Assembly (NCBI GenBank): GCA_030698575.1
Contig: JAUYMQ010000346.1
Coordinates: 1 to 5,812 of the forward strand
DNA: 5,812 nucleotides
From: Deltaproteobacteria bacterium
Lineage (GTDB): Bacteria > JAUYMQ01
Reading direction: 5' to 3'
In this document: positions 476 through 5,812 of the stretch, in pieces
Layout: each line of letters opens with the position of its first letter
Position numbering within the stretch: position 1 is the stretch's first letter
The notes under the pieces: generated by a model
The model's database searches: none
What the model saw: only the letters and a program-made list of their open reading frames with translations
Told to the model about the DNA's origin: nothing
Made by a program: the position numbers and the translations under genes

Positions 476-532
476 GCTTGACCCCCTCCCGCGCGCTTGT
501 GCCGCCACGGGGCGGGTGCTAGACAGAGGGCC

Positions 533-1450
533 ATGAAAGCCTGCGTGAGCTGCGGAAAAACCTCGGGAAAACCGGTCTGGCGCGAACAGGACGTGGACAT
601 CGTCCGCTGCGGCGGGTGCGGCCTGGTGTATACCAACCTCGAGGGGGACGTGGCCGAGACCTTCTGGAAGGAGCCCAAACCCGAAAAGCTCGATCAGGAG
701 GATTTTTACTGGGACACCGCGCGGGCGGCGGTCTACGACGAAGTGCTCGATCTGCTGGAACCGGAGAAGCGGGCGGAGGGCGGCGAGCCCGCCCGCATCC
801 TGGACATCGGCTGCGGCAAGGGCTTCTTCCTGAAGCGGGCCGCCGACCGGGGCTGGGAGGCCCATGGGCTCGAGCTGTCGCCTCACGCGGTGAAGTTTGC
901 GAAAGAGAAGCTGGGGCTGCGCCACGTGGCGATGGGCCGGGTCGAAAACGTGGCCTTTCGCGCCAGGATGTTCCGCGTGATCACGCTCTGGGACGTGATC
1001 GAGCACCTGGCCGATCCCGGACCCATCCTGAGGAAGTCGGCCGAGCTGCTTGCCGAGGACGGACTGCTCTTCATCCAGACGCCCAACATCGGCTTTCACC
1101 TTCCCTACGCGCACCTGAAGCGCCTGGTGGGGCGCGTGACCAACAGCCGGAAGGCCCGCAAGCATCAGCTCGAGGCGAAACACCATCTCGTCCAGTTCAC
1201 GCGCGAGAGCCTTGCCGGGATGCTGCGGCGCTCGGCTTTCAAAGACGTCACGTTCCAGGTGCTCCGGCCCATCGAGTCGGTGGCCGGGAGTCGCAGCGAG
1301 CGGCTGGCCGCCGCGAAAGGCGCCTACGTGAGCGTCGCGCGGCGAATTTTCGGCGCCACCGGCGGCCGGGTCATGCTGGCGAACACGCTCCACGCCTTCG
1401 CCAGGCGCGGCGACGTCCCCCCGCCCAAGCCGTTCAAGGCCCCCCGGTAA
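533..1450 (+). CDS. Zinc-ribbon class I SAM-dependent methyltransferase
   Basis: Encodes 305 residues. The ATG at 533 is preferred over an upstream TTG at 497 because AGAGGG (525-530) lies just before it, although closely spaced, and because the conserved N-terminal cysteine motif begins only four residues in. A zinc-ribbon-like segment has C4-x2-C7 and C26-x2-C29, followed by GLVYTN. The Rossmann methyltransferase core shows the glycine-rich SAM motif ILDIGCGKGFF (residues 89-99), an acidic strand-2 end (HGLELSPHAVKFA), the motif LWDVIEHLADP (152-162, D154/E157/H158), and the post-motif strand LLFIQTPN. A later HHLVQFTRESLAGMLRRSAF segment matches the usual C-terminal pattern of this subfamily. 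Such proteins are common in polysaccharide, O-antigen and natural-product loci, where they methylate sugars or small molecules; the substrate here cannot be read. It is predicted cytosolic. It is separated from the next gene by 268 bp, so co-transcription with the downstream cluster is uncertain. Confidence 0.9.
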   Translation: MKACVSCGKTSGKPVWREQDVDIVRCGGCGLVYTNLEGDVAETFWKEPKPEKLDQEDFYWDTARAAVYDEVLDLLEPEKRAEGGEPARILDIGCGKGFFLKRAADRGWEAHGLELSPHAVKFAKEKLGLRHVAMGRVENVAFRARMFRVITLWDVIEHLADPGPILRKSAELLAEDGLLFIQTPNIGFHLPYAHLKRLVGRVTNSRKARKHQLEAKHHLVQFTRESLAGMLRRSAFKDVTFQVLRPIESVAGSRSERLAAAKGAYVSVARRIFGATGGRVMLANTLHAFARRGDVPPPKPFKAPR

Positions 1451-1630
1451 GAGGGACCCACTTATCATTCGCCCCCATGTCATTGCGAGGAGCGAAGCGA
1501 CGAAGCAATCCCCCTGTTCGTGGGGTGCCCGGGAGATTGCTTCGTCGGGCCTTTCGGCCCTCCTCGCAATGACATGCGGGCAAAGGCGCAAACTGACCCG
1601 CTCTGCCCTCTTTAAGCGGGACTGTCCCTC
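1451..1630. mobile_element. Possible non-autonomous REP/MITE-like remnant
   Basis: The stretch begins immediately after the methyltransferase stop with GAGGGAC (1451-1457) and ends with the inverted copy GTCCCTC (1624-1630). Within it lies the large palindrome at 1476-1576. The flanks of that palindrome are also partly related in inverted orientation: CATTCGCCCCCATG (1466-1479) versus CCTTTGCCCGCATG on the opposite strand, 11 of 14 identical. A small perfect palindrome, GGGACTGTCCC, occurs at 1618-1628. No open reading frame for a transposase is present. This looks like a decayed non-autonomous insertion, but the outer repeats are only 7 bp and no target-site duplication was identified, so the boundaries are tentative. 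Confidence 0.4.
1476..1576. repeat. Large interrupted palindrome with side hairpins (REP-like intergenic repeat)
   Basis: The left arm CATGTCATTGCGAGGAG (1476-1492) is perfectly repeated in inverted orientation at 1560-1576 (17 bp). A second arm pair, GACGAAGCAATC (1499-1510), is perfectly repeated in inverted orientation at 1535-1546 (12 bp). Between the two paired blocks the left side carries 6 nt, forming the word GCGAAGC at 1492-1498, and the right side carries an insert that can fold as GGGCC-TTTC-GGCCC (1547-1560). The apex contains CCCC (1511-1514) facing GGGG (1522-1525). The structure would be a long stem with side hairpins, typical of dispersed intergenic repeats. The 'CATTGCGAGGAGCGAAGCGACGAAGCAATC'-type word, here split across arms, is one I recall as widespread in diverse bacterial genomes; that is recollection and was not verified. 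Confidence 0.85.
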
Positions 1631-1703
1631 TTTTGCCGCTTTCGCTCTTTCGTTGCGTGACTGATCCCTGTGTGCTACCAAAAGGGCCGTAACTGAACGT
1701 CCT

Positions 1704-1711
1704 GGAAGGGG
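1704..1711 (+). promoter_or_regulatory. Ribosome binding site for the deacetylase-like gene
   Basis: GGAAGGGG ends seven bases before the ATG at 1719, separated by a run of six T. The spacing favours ATG 1719 over the adjacent in-frame TTG at 1716. Confidence 0.6.
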
Positions 1712-1718
1712 TTTTTTG

Positions 1719-2753
1719 ATGCGTGGCGACGCTGGAACGGGAGCGGTAACGAAAACGGCACGCCGCTGGGCCGGATACCTGCGCGACGCGGCCCTCGACC
1801 GCCTGGCGTCCGCCCGCGACGCCGCGCGGACCGAGCCGGTCCGCATCAACTTCGTCTTTCACACCGAGCGTGTGGCCGAGCAGCCGAGCTTCGAGCGGCT
1901 GCTCGACTTCGTCACCTCCTTTCACAGCGCGACCGGCGTCCGCCCCACCCTCTGCCTGCTCACCCCGCACTGCCCGAAGGTCCAGGTCCAGATGGAGCGG
2001 ACCGGTCTCGACGACGACGGTTTCGGCGAGCGCGTGACGCGCCTTCTCGAGCATGCCGAGGCGGGCTACCACGGCCACTACTTCGAGCTGACCGACGACG
2101 AGGAGCGCGCGCGGAAGTCCCACCGCGAGCACTTCGGGCGCGAGGGCGCCTACCCCGGTCCCCGGAGAGCAAGCGAGGCCGGCGGCGGCGGAGCCACGTG
2201 GATGATCCCGGTGAGCCACCTGAACCCGCGCCACGATCTCGCCGAGGCGCAGATGGATCGCGAGCTGGCCTGGCTCGCGAAGGCCGGCATCCGGCCGCGC
2301 GTCTACACGGCCGGCTGGTGGCACATGGACGCCCCCATCGCCCGGCTTCTCGCGGCCCGCGGCATCGTGGTCGACTGCTCGATCCGCCGGCGGCACCGGA
2401 ACACTTTCGGCGCGCGCTACCTCGGCGACGACGCCATCCCGCCCCGCGGCGAACCGTTCCTGCTGCCGCCCACGGAAAGCCTCATCGAGGTGCAGTCGAT
2501 CTTCTACCCGGTGGATCACCCCTACCGGCTGCGCGAGGCCTACGCCGCCATCGTCGCCCACGCGCCCGATCGCCCGCTCTTCGTCGCCCTCCCCTCGCAC
2601 GAGGGGGAGCTGTTCACCCATGCGCGCGTCTACCAGGATCACATCCGCCGCATCTCTGATTCGCCCGCCTTCGCCTGGCGCGCGGTTTCCTCCTTCGAAA
2701 CGGAGATCCGGCGCGCATGGCCGGAGCGGGTCGGAAACGGAGGCGCCGCGTGA
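1719..2753 (+). CDS. Divergent NodB/polysaccharide deacetylase-like protein
   Basis: Encodes 344 residues from ATG 1719 (purine-rich RBS at 1704-1711). The N-terminal 40 residues are basic and show no obvious signal peptide. The first predicted beta strand is VRINFVFHTERV (41-52, H48/E50), where classical family members have an Asp-Asp pair. Further along, HAEAGYHGHYF (112-122) carries an H118-x-H120 pair resembling the metal-binding histidine motif. QMDRELAWLAKAGIRPRVYTAGWWHMDAPIARLLAARGIVVDCS resembles the helix-strand-helix 'E-L-..G..P..F/Y..G......L...G' signature of NodB-type enzymes. LPSHEGEL near residues 292-298 could supply a late catalytic His (H294). I infer a carbohydrate-esterase-4-like or related (beta/alpha) barrel deacetylase acting on an N-acetylated sugar or glycan, but the assignment rests on a few motifs. 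Its TGA overlaps the next start in a GTGA, so it is translationally coupled to the FkbH-like gene. Confidence 0.85.
   Translation: MRGDAGTGAVTKTARRWAGYLRDAALDRLASARDAARTEPVRINFVFHTERVAEQPSFERLLDFVTSFHSATGVRPTLCLLTPHCPKVQVQMERTGLDDDGFGERVTRLLEHAEAGYHGHYFELTDDEERARKSHREHFGREGAYPGPRRASEAGGGGATWMIPVSHLNPRHDLAEAQMDRELAWLAKAGIRPRVYTAGWWHMDAPIARLLAARGIVVDCSIRRRHRNTFGARYLGDDAIPPRGEPFLLPPTESLIEVQSIFYPVDHPYRLREAYAAIVAHAPDRPLFVALPSHEGELFTHARVYQDHIRRISDSPAFAWRAVSSFETEIRRAWPERVGNGGAA
2739..2743 (+). promoter_or_regulatory. Ribosome binding site that decides the GTG start of the FkbH-like gene
   Basis: GGAGG ends six bases before the GTG at 2750, whose last two bases are the first two of the upstream TGA (GTGA overlap). 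An in-frame ATG at 2717 has no comparable site and would add an arginine-rich 11-residue stretch that is simply the overlap with the preceding gene, so GTG 2750 is preferred. Confidence 0.75.
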
Positions 2754-4480
2754 GCCGCCCCGGACCCCTCAAGATCGCCATCCTCTCCAACTACACGCTT
2801 GATCCGTTGAAAGAGTTCCTCGGGCGGGAGATCACCGCACTCGGCTTCGAGAGCGAAACGTGGGTGGCGCCCTTCGGCACCTACGCGCAGCAGATTCTCA
2901 ATCCGCAAAGTGAACTGCACACCTTCGCTCCGGATGTGACCGTGCTCGCGCTCTCGCCCGGACCGATTTTCGGGCGGCTGATCGAGCGATTCTCCGAGAC
3001 GTCGCCCGAGGCGCGGCATGCCGGGGTGTCGGCCGCCGTGGGGGAGATCGCCGGCCTCTGCGAAGCCTGGGGTCGCGCAACGGGAATCCTGATTCTGCAC
3101 AACTTCGTCATTCCCTCCTCGCCCGTGCTGGGCCTCCACGATTTGAGGAACCCCTTCGGTGAGCGGGCGATGTTCGCCGCGGCCAACGACGAGCTGGCCG
3201 CCGCCTGCCGGAAGCTCGCCGGCGCCTGGGTGCTCGACCTGGAAGCGCTTGCCGGCCGCGTCGGGAAAGATGCCTGGAGCGATCCGAAGATGGTCTTCCT
3301 GGCGCGCATGGACGTCTCGCGCGCGGGGCTCGAGGCGCTGGCGCAGGAGACGATGCGCTTCGTCCGCGCGCTGCTGGGGCGATCGCACAAGGCGCTCGTG
3401 CTCGACCTCGACAACACGCTCTGGGGCGGCGTCATCGGCGAGGACGGCGTGGCCGGAATCAAGCTCGGAGACGCGCCGCCGGGCAACGCCTTCGTGGCTT
3501 TCCAGCGCCGCCTGCTGGTCCTCCACAAGCGCGGCGTGCTGCTGGCGGTGAACAGCGCCAACAATCCCGAGGACGCCATCGAGGTTCTCGAATCGCACCC
3601 AGAGATGGTTCTGCGGCCGGAGCACTTCGCGGCCATGCGCATCAACTGGCGCGACAAGACCGAGAACCTGCGCGAGATCGCCGCCGAGCTGCGGCTGGGC
3701 CTCGACGCCTTCGTGTTCTGGGACGACAGCGCGACCGAGCGCGAACGCATGCGGGCGCGGCTCCCCGAGGTGCTCACCATCGAGGTGCCGCGCGACCCGG
3801 CGCTCTACGAGCGCGCGCTGGCGCAGCTCGCGGATTTCGACGCGCTCTCGCTCACCGAGGAAGACCGCGCGCGGGGGCGCATGATGGCCGAGGGGCGCGC
3901 CCGCGACGATGCCCGCGCGAAGGTTGCGACCGAGGACGATTTTCTCCGGAGTCTCGAGATCAACGCGACGATCGCGGCGCCGGACGCGATCACGCTCCCG
4001 CGCTTCGCCCAGCTCACGCAGCGCACCAACCAGTTCAATTTGACGACGCGGCGATATACCGAGGCCGATCTCACGCGAATGCTCGCCGACGGAAAGACGC
4101 TGGTGCGCGGCCTGCGCGTCGTGGATCGTTTCGGCGACGAGGGGTGGGTGGGCCTGGCGATAGCCATGCGCGAAGGCGAAAGCGCGCGCCTCGACACCTT
4201 CCTCATGAGCTGCCGGGTCATCGGCCGGAAGATCGAGCACGCCTTCCTGGCCGCGCTCGTCGAGGAGCTCTGCGCCGCCGGCGTCCAGCGCTTCGAGGCG
4301 AGCTACATCTCCACGCCGAAGAACGCCCTCTGCGAACACTTCCTCGCCGACGCGGGGCTCGCGGGCGCCGGCGAGGCCGGCGAGGAAACGCGCTACACTC
4401 TCGATCTGACGGTCGCCCTCCCCGCGCCGCCGCAACACGTGACCCTCCTCCGGGCGCCTGACGGCGCCGGACCCGCCTGA
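2750..4480 (+). CDS. FkbH-like protein: HAD-IIIC phosphatase fused to a GNAT-like acyltransferase
   Basis: Encodes 576 residues from GTG 2750. Residues ~1-210 match the N-terminal domain of FkbH proteins (LKIAILSNYTLDPLKEFLGRE, then GILILHNFVIPS). The HAD domain follows: motif I is LVLDLDNTLWGG with nucleophile D219 and D221; motif II is S269 in VNSANN; motif III is probably K303 in INWRDKTENL; motif IV is D325-D326 in FVFWDDS. The C-terminal GNAT-like domain has RTNQFNLTTRRYTEADL (~425-441), VVDRFGDEGWVGLAI and FLMSCRVIGR (484-493, with C488), all hallmarks of the family. Characterised homologues take D-1,3-bisphosphoglycerate, remove phosphate, and load a glyceryl group onto an acyl carrier protein for extender-unit or tetronate synthesis; others occur in surface-polysaccharide loci. 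The adjacent ACP-containing gene fits this loading role. Minor deviations are Ala270 where I recall Lys in 'SKNN', and WDDSAT in place of the usual DDxPxERE. Predicted cytosolic. Confidence 0.93.
   Translation: MSRPGPLKIAILSNYTLDPLKEFLGREITALGFESETWVAPFGTYAQQILNPQSELHTFAPDVTVLALSPGPIFGRLIERFSETSPEARHAGVSAAVGEIAGLCEAWGRATGILILHNFVIPSSPVLGLHDLRNPFGERAMFAAANDELAAACRKLAGAWVLDLEALAGRVGKDAWSDPKMVFLARMDVSRAGLEALAQETMRFVRALLGRSHKALVLDLDNTLWGGVIGEDGVAGIKLGDAPPGNAFVAFQRRLLVLHKRGVLLAVNSANNPEDAIEVLESHPEMVLRPEHFAAMRINWRDKTENLREIAAELRLGLDAFVFWDDSATERERMRARLPEVLTIEVPRDPALYERALAQLADFDALSLTEEDRARGRMMAEGRARDDARAKVATEDDFLRSLEINATIAAPDAITLPRFAQLTQRTNQFNLTTRRYTEADLTRMLADGKTLVRGLRVVDRFGDEGWVGLAIAMREGESARLDTFLMSCRVIGRKIEHAFLAALVEELCAAGVQRFEASYISTPKNALCEHFLADAGLAGAGEAGEETRYTLDLTVALPAPPQHVTLLRAPDGAGPA
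4453..4468 (+). promoter_or_regulatory. Small GC hairpin at the FkbH/ACP-GNAT junction
   Basis: GGCGCC (4453-4458), loop TGAC, GGCGCC (4463-4468) gives a perfect 6-bp stem inside the last codons of the fkbH-like gene, ending 13 bases before the next ATG (4482). There is no strong Shine-Dalgarno for that ATG (only GGA at 4469-4471), so the downstream gene probably depends on coupling to upstream translation; the hairpin might modulate this. There is no T-run, so it is not an intrinsic terminator. Confidence 0.3.
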
Positions 4481-4481
4481 C

Positions 4482-5812
4482 ATGGATGAACGCGTACGCG
4501 ACGTCTTCGTGACCGTGCTGGCCGTGCCCCGGGAGATCGTCACGCCCGAGGCGACGCCCGAGCAGGTGCCGGGGTGGGATTCACTGGCGCATCTTTCGCT
4601 GGTGGCCGAGTTCGAGCGACTCTTCGGCGTGCAGCTCACGATGGACGAGGTACTCGCGGTGGGATGCGTGGGCGATTTCGCGCGCCTGGCCGTCGCCGGG
4701 GGCGAGGCGCCTGCATCTCAGCCGCCGCCCGCGGGCGCGCCGTCGATCGATCCCGTCGCGCCGCTGCTCCCGCCCGAACACGAAGCGCTCTTCGATTTCG
4801 CCCGCCGCGTCTCGAAGGAGATCACGCTCGTCCATTCCCCGGAGCACTGGGCCTGGCAGTACGAGCAGAACCCCGGCGCCACACCCGGCCGATCGCCGGT
4901 CTATCTCTTCCATCACGAGGGGGCCATCGCCGGGCACCTCGGCACCATTCCGGTGACGCTCGAGGCGCAGGGGAAACTGCTCCGCGCGAGCTGGAGCGCG
5001 GGGCTCGTCACCTCGCCGGAGGCCCGCTCGCGGGGGGCGGGCGTCAGGCTCGTCGAACGCTGGACGCACGATTGCGACGTGAGCCTGGTCCTCGGCACCA
5101 CGCCGGACGCCGAGAAGCTTTTCACCTCCCTCGGCTGGCTCCGTCCCGCGGGCGGCCACCTTCGCTCCTACATGAAGCTTCTCGATGCCGATGCCGTGGT
5201 GCGAAAGCGGGTGAAGAACCCGGCGGCCCGGAAGGTGCTCGCGTCGGTGGCCAACGTGGCGCTCTCGATGATCCTCCGGACGCCGAGCGTGGCCGGAGGC
5301 GATCTGCGCGTGAGCCACTTCGATCGCTTCGATGCGCGCTTCGACGATTTCTGGGAGCGGGTGCGCGGGGGTTTTCCGGTCATCGTGCGGCGGGATCGAA
5401 GGTACCTGCAGTGGAAGTTCGCGTCGCAGCCTGGCGTGGAGTACATCCGGCTTGTGGCCGAGCGGTCGCCGGACGGCGCGGCGGGGAGTGCCAACGAAAA
5501 AAGTCCGCGCGAGGTCGCGGGCTACGCGGTGCTGCGAATCATGAAGCGGAAGCCCTACGTGGCCTACATCGTCGACTGGCTGGCCGGCGCCGATGACGAC
5601 GAAGCCTGGCGGTTTCTCCTCGCGGCTTCCGTCGACGTTCTCCAGTCGCGCGGCGTGCAGCAGATCTGGTGCGTGGTGCTGAATCCCACGGCGGAAGAGC
5701 ATCTCCGGAAATTCGGCTTCGTGGTCCGCGACTCGCCCATGACCTTCTTCGTCCGCCCGAACCGCCCCGATCTCGATCCCGCCTTCTTCACCGACGGCGC
5801 AAACTGGTTCGT
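4482..5812 (+). CDS. Fused acyl carrier protein / tandem GNAT-like acyltransferase, C-terminus off the window
   Basis: The frame is open from ATG 4482 to the right edge (443 codons plus 2 bases), one base after the FkbH stop. Residues 1-72 form an acyl carrier domain: helix VRDVFVTVLAV, then VPGWDSLAHLSLVAEFERLFGV, where Ser34 is the expected phosphopantetheine attachment site. Residues ~73-98 are a Pro/Ala-rich linker (PASQPPPAGAPS). Residues ~102-215 form a GNAT-like domain: WAWQYEQNP (123-131), EGAIAGHLGTIPV, and the acetyl-CoA-binding-type motif SPEARSRGAG (178-187, R182-x-x-G185-x-G187), then LFTSLGW. A second GNAT-like half (~290-430) has RRDRRYLQWKF (303-313), AGYAVLRI, YIVDWL and HLRKFGF (407-413) but no clear RxxGxG/A motif. 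GNAT proteins with WKY/RDxxYLxWRF patterns are frequent in polysaccharide loci. The end PAFFTDGANWF suggests only a few residues are missing. Likely role: receive the acyl group from FkbH on Ser34 and transfer it to an acceptor. Confidence 0.85.
   Translation, partial: MDERVRDVFVTVLAVPREIVTPEATPEQVPGWDSLAHLSLVAEFERLFGVQLTMDEVLAVGCVGDFARLAVAGGEAPASQPPPAGAPSIDPVAPLLPPEHEALFDFARRVSKEITLVHSPEHWAWQYEQNPGATPGRSPVYLFHHEGAIAGHLGTIPVTLEAQGKLLRASWSAGLVTSPEARSRGAGVRLVERWTHDCDVSLVLGTTPDAEKLFTSLGWLRPAGGHLRSYMKLLDADAVVRKRVKNPAARKVLASVANVALSMILRTPSVAGGDLRVSHFDRFDARFDDFWERVRGGFPVIVRRDRRYLQWKFASQPGVEYIRLVAERSPDGAAGSANEKSPREVAGYAVLRIMKRKPYVAYIVDWLAGADDDEAWRFLLAASVDVLQSRGVQQIWCVVLNPTAEEHLRKFGFVVRDSPMTFFVRPNRPDLDPAFFTDGANWF

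Follow-up and report, generated by a model that had tools for sequence, protein, structure and literature searches.

An acyl carrier domain fused to a tandem GNAT acyltransferase directly behind an FkbH gene in a deltaproteobacterial draft genome

The window, by which we mean the whole stretch of 5,812 nucleotides that was analysed, is one entire contig (C507) of the draft genome of a Deltaproteobacteria bacterium, an assembly of 4.13 Mb in 653 contigs that is 91.6% complete and 4.6% contaminated. Four forward-strand genes lie on it in operon-like order, encoding a SAM methyltransferase, an uncharacterised protein, an FkbH-type enzyme, and a protein in which an acyl carrier protein (ACP) domain is followed by a tandem GNAT acyltransferase (Table 1). 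The frame of the last of these, which begins with the ATG at 4482, is still open at the window end, 5812. The final 140 bases (5673-5812) are identical, with 0 mismatches, to the start of the minus strand of a second contig, C100. This exact overlap looks like an assembly-graph join, as expected of neighbouring contigs, and on C100 the frame reaches a stop 11 codons on, at merged position 5846, to give a protein of 454 amino acids. Beyond this reading frame, C100 carries seemingly unrelated genes (SDR, glycyl radical enzyme-like and acyl-CoA dehydrogenase-like). Polyketide synthase genes were seen neither in the window nor on the adjoining C100, and the window itself contains no glycosyltransferase gene. 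Very long open frames, of up to 666 amino acids, also run on the antisense strand opposite the real genes (for example at 2639-4639, minus strand); these are a by-product of high G+C, and no evidence gathered here marks them as genes.

Table 1. Genes, domains and motifs of the window
Feature	Position	Strand	Basis or remark
SAM methyltransferase, ORF from first start	497..1450	+	Methyltransf_23, E 3e-22
Uncharacterised glycan-locus protein, conserved His/Glu/Asp	1716..2753	+	Relatives in glycan loci
FkbH-type HAD glyceryl transferase/phosphatase	2717..4480	+	TIGR01686; stop 1 bp before fusion ATG
Acyl carrier (PP-binding) domain, residues 1-73	4482..4700	+	Pfam PF00550, AlphaFold2, ACP alignment
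Predicted phosphopantetheine Ser34 in GWDSL	codon 4581-4583	+	Ser aligned in 22 other ACPs
Pro/Ala-rich linker, residues 74-97	4701..4772	+	No stop, no in-frame start codon
First GNAT half	4773..5270	+	Pfam Acetyltransf_9, E 1.5e-5; family profile against PDB
R-x-x-G-x-G loop RSRGAG, residues 182-187	5025-5042	+	Motif in first GNAT half
Degenerate second GNAT half, with the C-terminal motif of the family, NWFVTKGDADQDRP	5271..5812	+	Completed on C100, stop at merged position 5846

The presence of an ACP and a tandem GNAT in a single gene is a real, rare fusion of familiar parts. The first-pass annotation had described one uninterrupted frame leading from a complete ACP domain, with Ser34 in GWDSL, through a Pro/Ala-rich linker to two GNAT-like halves, in the neighbourhood of an FkbH gene, and this description is borne out. 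No stop interrupts the 454 residues obtained with C100, the PP-binding match extends over residues 3-69, the linker occupies about residues 74-97, and the FkbH gene ends at 4480 with the fusion starting at 4482; both GNAT-like halves are present as well, the second on weak evidence (E 0.036-0.31 for a profile of C-terminal halves, described below). A missed stop or frameshift in the linker finds no support in the stops, the in-frame starts, the codon-position composition or the contig overlap. Between codon 63 and codon 158 the frame contains no ATG, GTG or TTG, which leaves the GNAT without a start of its own near its natural N-terminus. The GC3 along the frame is steady at 0.80-0.93, and the two parts meet at the position that corresponds to the C-terminal end of free-standing ACPs and to the N-terminal start of free-standing tandem GNATs.

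That a sequencing or binning error has joined two genes is, on this evidence, highly improbable. The idea draws on the state of the genome, a 653-contig draft with 4.6% contamination, and on the failure to find a second fusion, the relatives being encoded as separate genes, a circumstance that the earlier annotation had coupled with an assembly artefact as grounds for doubt. Separate genes are indeed what the relatives show, but nothing points to an artefact here: the junction sits mid-contig, with neither a stop nor an in-frame GNAT start, two genes could be explained only by an indel or by at least two errors, the codon-position composition is unbroken and the composition of the linker is typical.

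The carrier domain is readily recognised. PF00550 covers residues 3-69, and positions 1-66 of the 67 in the profile, with E-values of 6e-6 for the whole protein and 2e-7 for the domain alone (26.8 and 31.6 bits against a cut-off of 20.8). AlphaFold2, run with alignment rows from the window and from loci L066 and L067, models residues 1-70 at a pLDDT of 75-88 with helices at 3-13, 34-48, 54-58 and 63-72. Among 22 other ACPs, the nearest to the domain are those encoded behind FkbH genes (41% identity in L098, 36% in L101 and 33% in L060), as expected if FkbH charges the ACP; an ACP fused to an AMP ligase in L108 likewise reaches 33%, and the ACPs near tandem GNATs share less than 24% identity with it. 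The FkbH gene itself matches TIGR01686 at E 8e-90 (301 bits against a cut-off of 146.65), and its DLDNTL (DxDxT) and SCRVIGR (conserved Cys) motifs align with those of 7 homologues. Its product is likely to be the enzyme that charges the ACP of the fusion.

The tandem GNAT part comprises residues from about 97 to 454. Acetyltransf_9 is matched on residues 136-198 with 25.4 bits, just above the cut-off of 25, and a profile of the family searched against the PDB retrieved, through the first half, the Eis-like tandem GNAT 2ozg (E 1e-7) and N-myristoyltransferases (E 4e-5 and weaker). The second half lies below single-sequence detection; a profile of 12 C-terminal halves from the family returned GNAT proteins only from the PDB, all of them weak matches. 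With the three-row alignment the AlphaFold2 model of the GNAT part has a pLDDT of about 30 and is unusable, with no acceptor site or ACP docking visible. The part has full-length homology to stand-alone proteins of 350-400 amino acids, members of a tandem GNAT family of glycan loci that was defined here by an iterated profile and has 45 members within the loci examined. Its best match is a stand-alone tandem GNAT of Azospirillum, to which residues 97-450 are 29.9% identical (E 8e-34). To our knowledge, no enzyme of this family has been characterised. In ordinary GNATs the R-x-x-G-x-G loop binds the pantetheine and pyrophosphate of CoA; it is kept in the fusion and in several, not all, of its relatives, and acyl-CoA is therefore a possible donor for the GNAT of the fusion. 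A second family member without an ACP domain, 28% identical, is encoded in the same genome (contig C275, L005 1780-3048), upstream of a glycosyltransferase-like reading frame. In a member of the Terriglobia (L066 8144-12114), two tandem GNAT copies are separated by about 1 kb, and the R-x-x-G-x-G loop is missing from both.

The remaining two genes are less easily placed. The methyltransferase has a CxxC..CxxC segment near its N-terminus that suggests a zinc ribbon. The 1716-2753 protein has no match by sequence in Pfam, NCBIfam or the PDB. Relatives of 31-38% identity are found in 4 other genomes, in loci with glycosyltransferases, and H49, E51, Y-H-G-H (118-121), D220 and H295 are invariant among them. 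The gene that follows such a relative is FemAB-like by Pfam in genome G074 and is similar in G217, on which basis the protein is possibly a distant deacetylase-like enzyme.

The neighbourhoods of the GNAT family were collected as 41 loci totalling 592 kb, each with family members. A polysaccharide deacetylase relative lies near the tandem GNAT in 14 of the 41, usually as the next gene. In seven (7/41) a separate ACP is encoded 5 bp to about 6 kb from the GNAT; the loci are not wholly independent of one another, and the 0.5-1.8 such loci expected is an estimate from an assumed 3-10 ACP genes per 3.3 Mb genome, not a measured background. The ACP of L093, at 17.7 bits, falls short of the PP-binding cut-off (20.8 bits), which all the other locus ACPs scanned with Pfam exceed. 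In L097 the order is AMP ligase, ACP, GNAT, with 5 bp from the ACP stop to the GNAT, and in L099 FkbH, ACP, MaoC-SDR, tandem GNAT (a family member at E 1e-57) and AsnB follow one another as separate genes. The window has its un-fused counterpart in L099, and the fusion itself has its own in L097; two- and three-gene equivalents of the arrangement exist elsewhere. ACP, KAS III, SDR, GNAT and deacetylase genes succeed one another in L048, and on Azospirillum plasmids the order is deacetylase, ACP, AMP ligase, AsnB, NadE, GNAT. The earlier suggestion of a cis carrier that feeds the GNAT gains support from these loci, in which ACP, FkbH and GNAT family members are neighbouring separate genes. The other 34 of the 41 tandem GNAT loci have no nearby ACP, which indicates that the family may ordinarily use acyl-CoA.

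Carriers joined to other enzymes were also encountered. In L060 about 24 bp separate an FkbH gene from the gene behind it, which encodes an ACP-SDR fusion (1489-2571, minus strand); this is the layout of the window except that the processing domain is an SDR and not a GNAT. On a plasmid of Aquisphaera giovannonii, within a glycan locus, a single protein of 1003 amino acids combines FkbH, ACP and thioesterase (L111 4959-7970); here too a carrier is fused in cis to a processing enzyme, with a thioesterase instead of the GNAT. In L108 an AMP ligase is joined to an ACP, and in Niveispirillum the genes behind FkbH and ACP encode a WcbI-type polysaccharide acyltransferase and an SDR. The fusion of an FkbH-linked carrier to a cargo-handling enzyme is thus a recurring theme, to which the window adds a tandem GNAT. 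A plasmid of Maritalea myrionectae encodes an aminoglycoside 3-N-acetyltransferase-like (Antibiotic_NAT) domain fused to FkbH (L113 4197-6656), in a protein annotated merely as a HAD-IIIC phosphatase.

A second ACP-tandem-GNAT fusion was found neither in 386 diverse genomes nor in 193 genomes of one phylum, nor in a few genomes of five small phyla, nor among 72,556 plasmids or viral contigs. A search of 84,980 species genomes with short exact peptides, which sees close relatives only and is weak evidence of absence, likewise gave none. The survey is shallow and included no relative from the window's own phylum. The architecture is either rare or restricted to a lineage not yet sampled, and it is not to be called unique.

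We propose that the four-gene unit (methyltransferase, 1716-2753 protein, FkbH and ACP-GNAT) would place a small hydroxyacyl group on an acceptor, for which an amino sugar in a surface glycan is the likeliest candidate. FkbH would take a glyceryl unit from 1,3-bisphosphoglycerate and load it onto the phosphopantetheine of Ser34, the fused tandem GNAT would move the acyl group from its cis carrier to an amine, and the methyltransferase and the 1716-2753 protein would act on the same product. The fusion would in this way perform in cis the task that an ACP and a tandem GNAT carry out elsewhere as two separate proteins. The central proposition, that FkbH loads a glyceryl-type unit on the cis ACP and the GNAT passes it to an amino group, most likely of a sugar, is in our judgement evenly balanced between right and wrong. 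The glyceryl identity of the cargo is suggested by the FkbH family, the ACP is a putative donor for the fused GNAT, with acyl-ACP preferred over acyl-CoA on gene context, and the glycan acceptor and any substrate channelling are likewise presumptive. The retained CoA-type loop, the many family loci that lack an ACP and the missing glycosyltransferase in the window count against this reading. GNAT-fold enzymes with ACP-dependent acyl transfer in trans are known in the LuxI and FeeM types. Nothing direct on FkbH together with a GNAT or with glycan acylation was found in the open literature.

The two domains may instead exchange no acyl group at all, the FkbH-charged ACP serving another enzyme and the GNAT using acetyl- or acyl-CoA, with the fusion coupling their amounts only. 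We consider this rather unlikely, though deserving of weight. It would account for the retained R-x-x-G-x-G loop, for the loci without an ACP nearby (34/41) and for the ACP of L060, which is fused after FkbH to an enzyme that is not an acyltransferase; however, the window shows no further acyl-accepting enzyme, L097 and L099 have ACP and GNAT side by side in one operon-like run, and SDR fusions also suit a domain whose substrate is the carried acyl group.

The nature of the acceptor is a separate matter. The same chemistry might be directed at a peptide, a lipid or another small molecule, given that no glycosyltransferase is encoded in the window, that the genes which come next on C100 have no apparent connection with glycans and that FkbH is also common in antibiotic clusters. 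The GNAT family and the relatives of the 1716-2753 protein nevertheless reside in loci with glycosyltransferases, and we judge a non-glycan acceptor improbable.

A known system with GNAT and ACP domains bears on the direction of transfer. In the CurA loading module, a GNAT decarboxylates malonyl-CoA and loads the acetyl group onto an ACP (PMC3252866). The first-pass annotation had suggested that the architecture is not well described; a lack of precedent for a GNAT-tethered carrier is not supported, because GNAT and ACP are adjacent in CurA-type loading modules, where the GNAT loads the ACP (PMC3252866). As in the fusion, both domains belong to one polypeptide, but in CurA-type modules the GNAT precedes the ACP, the context is polyketide synthesis and the transfer runs from CoA to ACP, whereas in the fusion the ACP comes first and the direction is presumed to be the opposite. 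Assignment of the fusion as a CurA-type loading module was ruled out by the order of the domains and by the lack of polyketide synthase genes both in the window and on C100. Given this precedent of a GNAT next to an ACP (PMC3252866), the GNAT could still load the adjacent ACP from acyl-CoA for the use of some other enzyme, but such a direction is very unlikely: besides the ACP-GNAT order and the missing polyketide synthase, FkbH is already there as a loader, and the relatives of the GNAT occur in glycan loci.

Other known systems resemble the locus in part. Like the window, the systems for glyceryl-ACP in tetronate and methoxymalonate pathways have FkbH directly before the ACP, with the catalytic motifs; their ACP is free-standing, in contrast to that of the window, which is joined to a tandem GNAT and has no polyketide synthase nearby. 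The Azospirillum protein WP_111068178.1, annotated as 'GNAT family N-acetyltransferase', is about 30% identical over residues 97-450 and has the same C-terminal motif as the fusion, and its locus includes a deacetylase and an ACP; it differs in having no ACP domain of its own, the separate ACP gene standing beside an AMP ligase and not an FkbH gene. Eis-type and N-myristoyltransferase tandem GNATs are built of GNAT repeats, as the fusion probably is too, but the profile similarity is remote and limited to the first half. Membership of the Eis family was rejected, there being no SCP2-like third domain by Pfam; the fusion protein ends after the second GNAT half.

When genes that are neighbours in other organisms are fused in one, this is good evidence for a joint function of their products. 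By this token the gene ties carriers of the FkbH type to a tandem GNAT family of glycan loci that is widespread and apparently uncharacterised; beyond that link, it is a further example of familiar domains arranged in cis. More speculatively, and in our view with a probability well short of even, the protein may be a self-loading, single-polypeptide N-glyceroyl transferase, with a cis carrier charged by FkbH and delivery by the GNAT to an amino sugar of glycans. If true, this would reveal by what enzymology bacterial glycans acquire N-glyceroyl groups, and would make acyl-ACP the donor for a widespread GNAT family.
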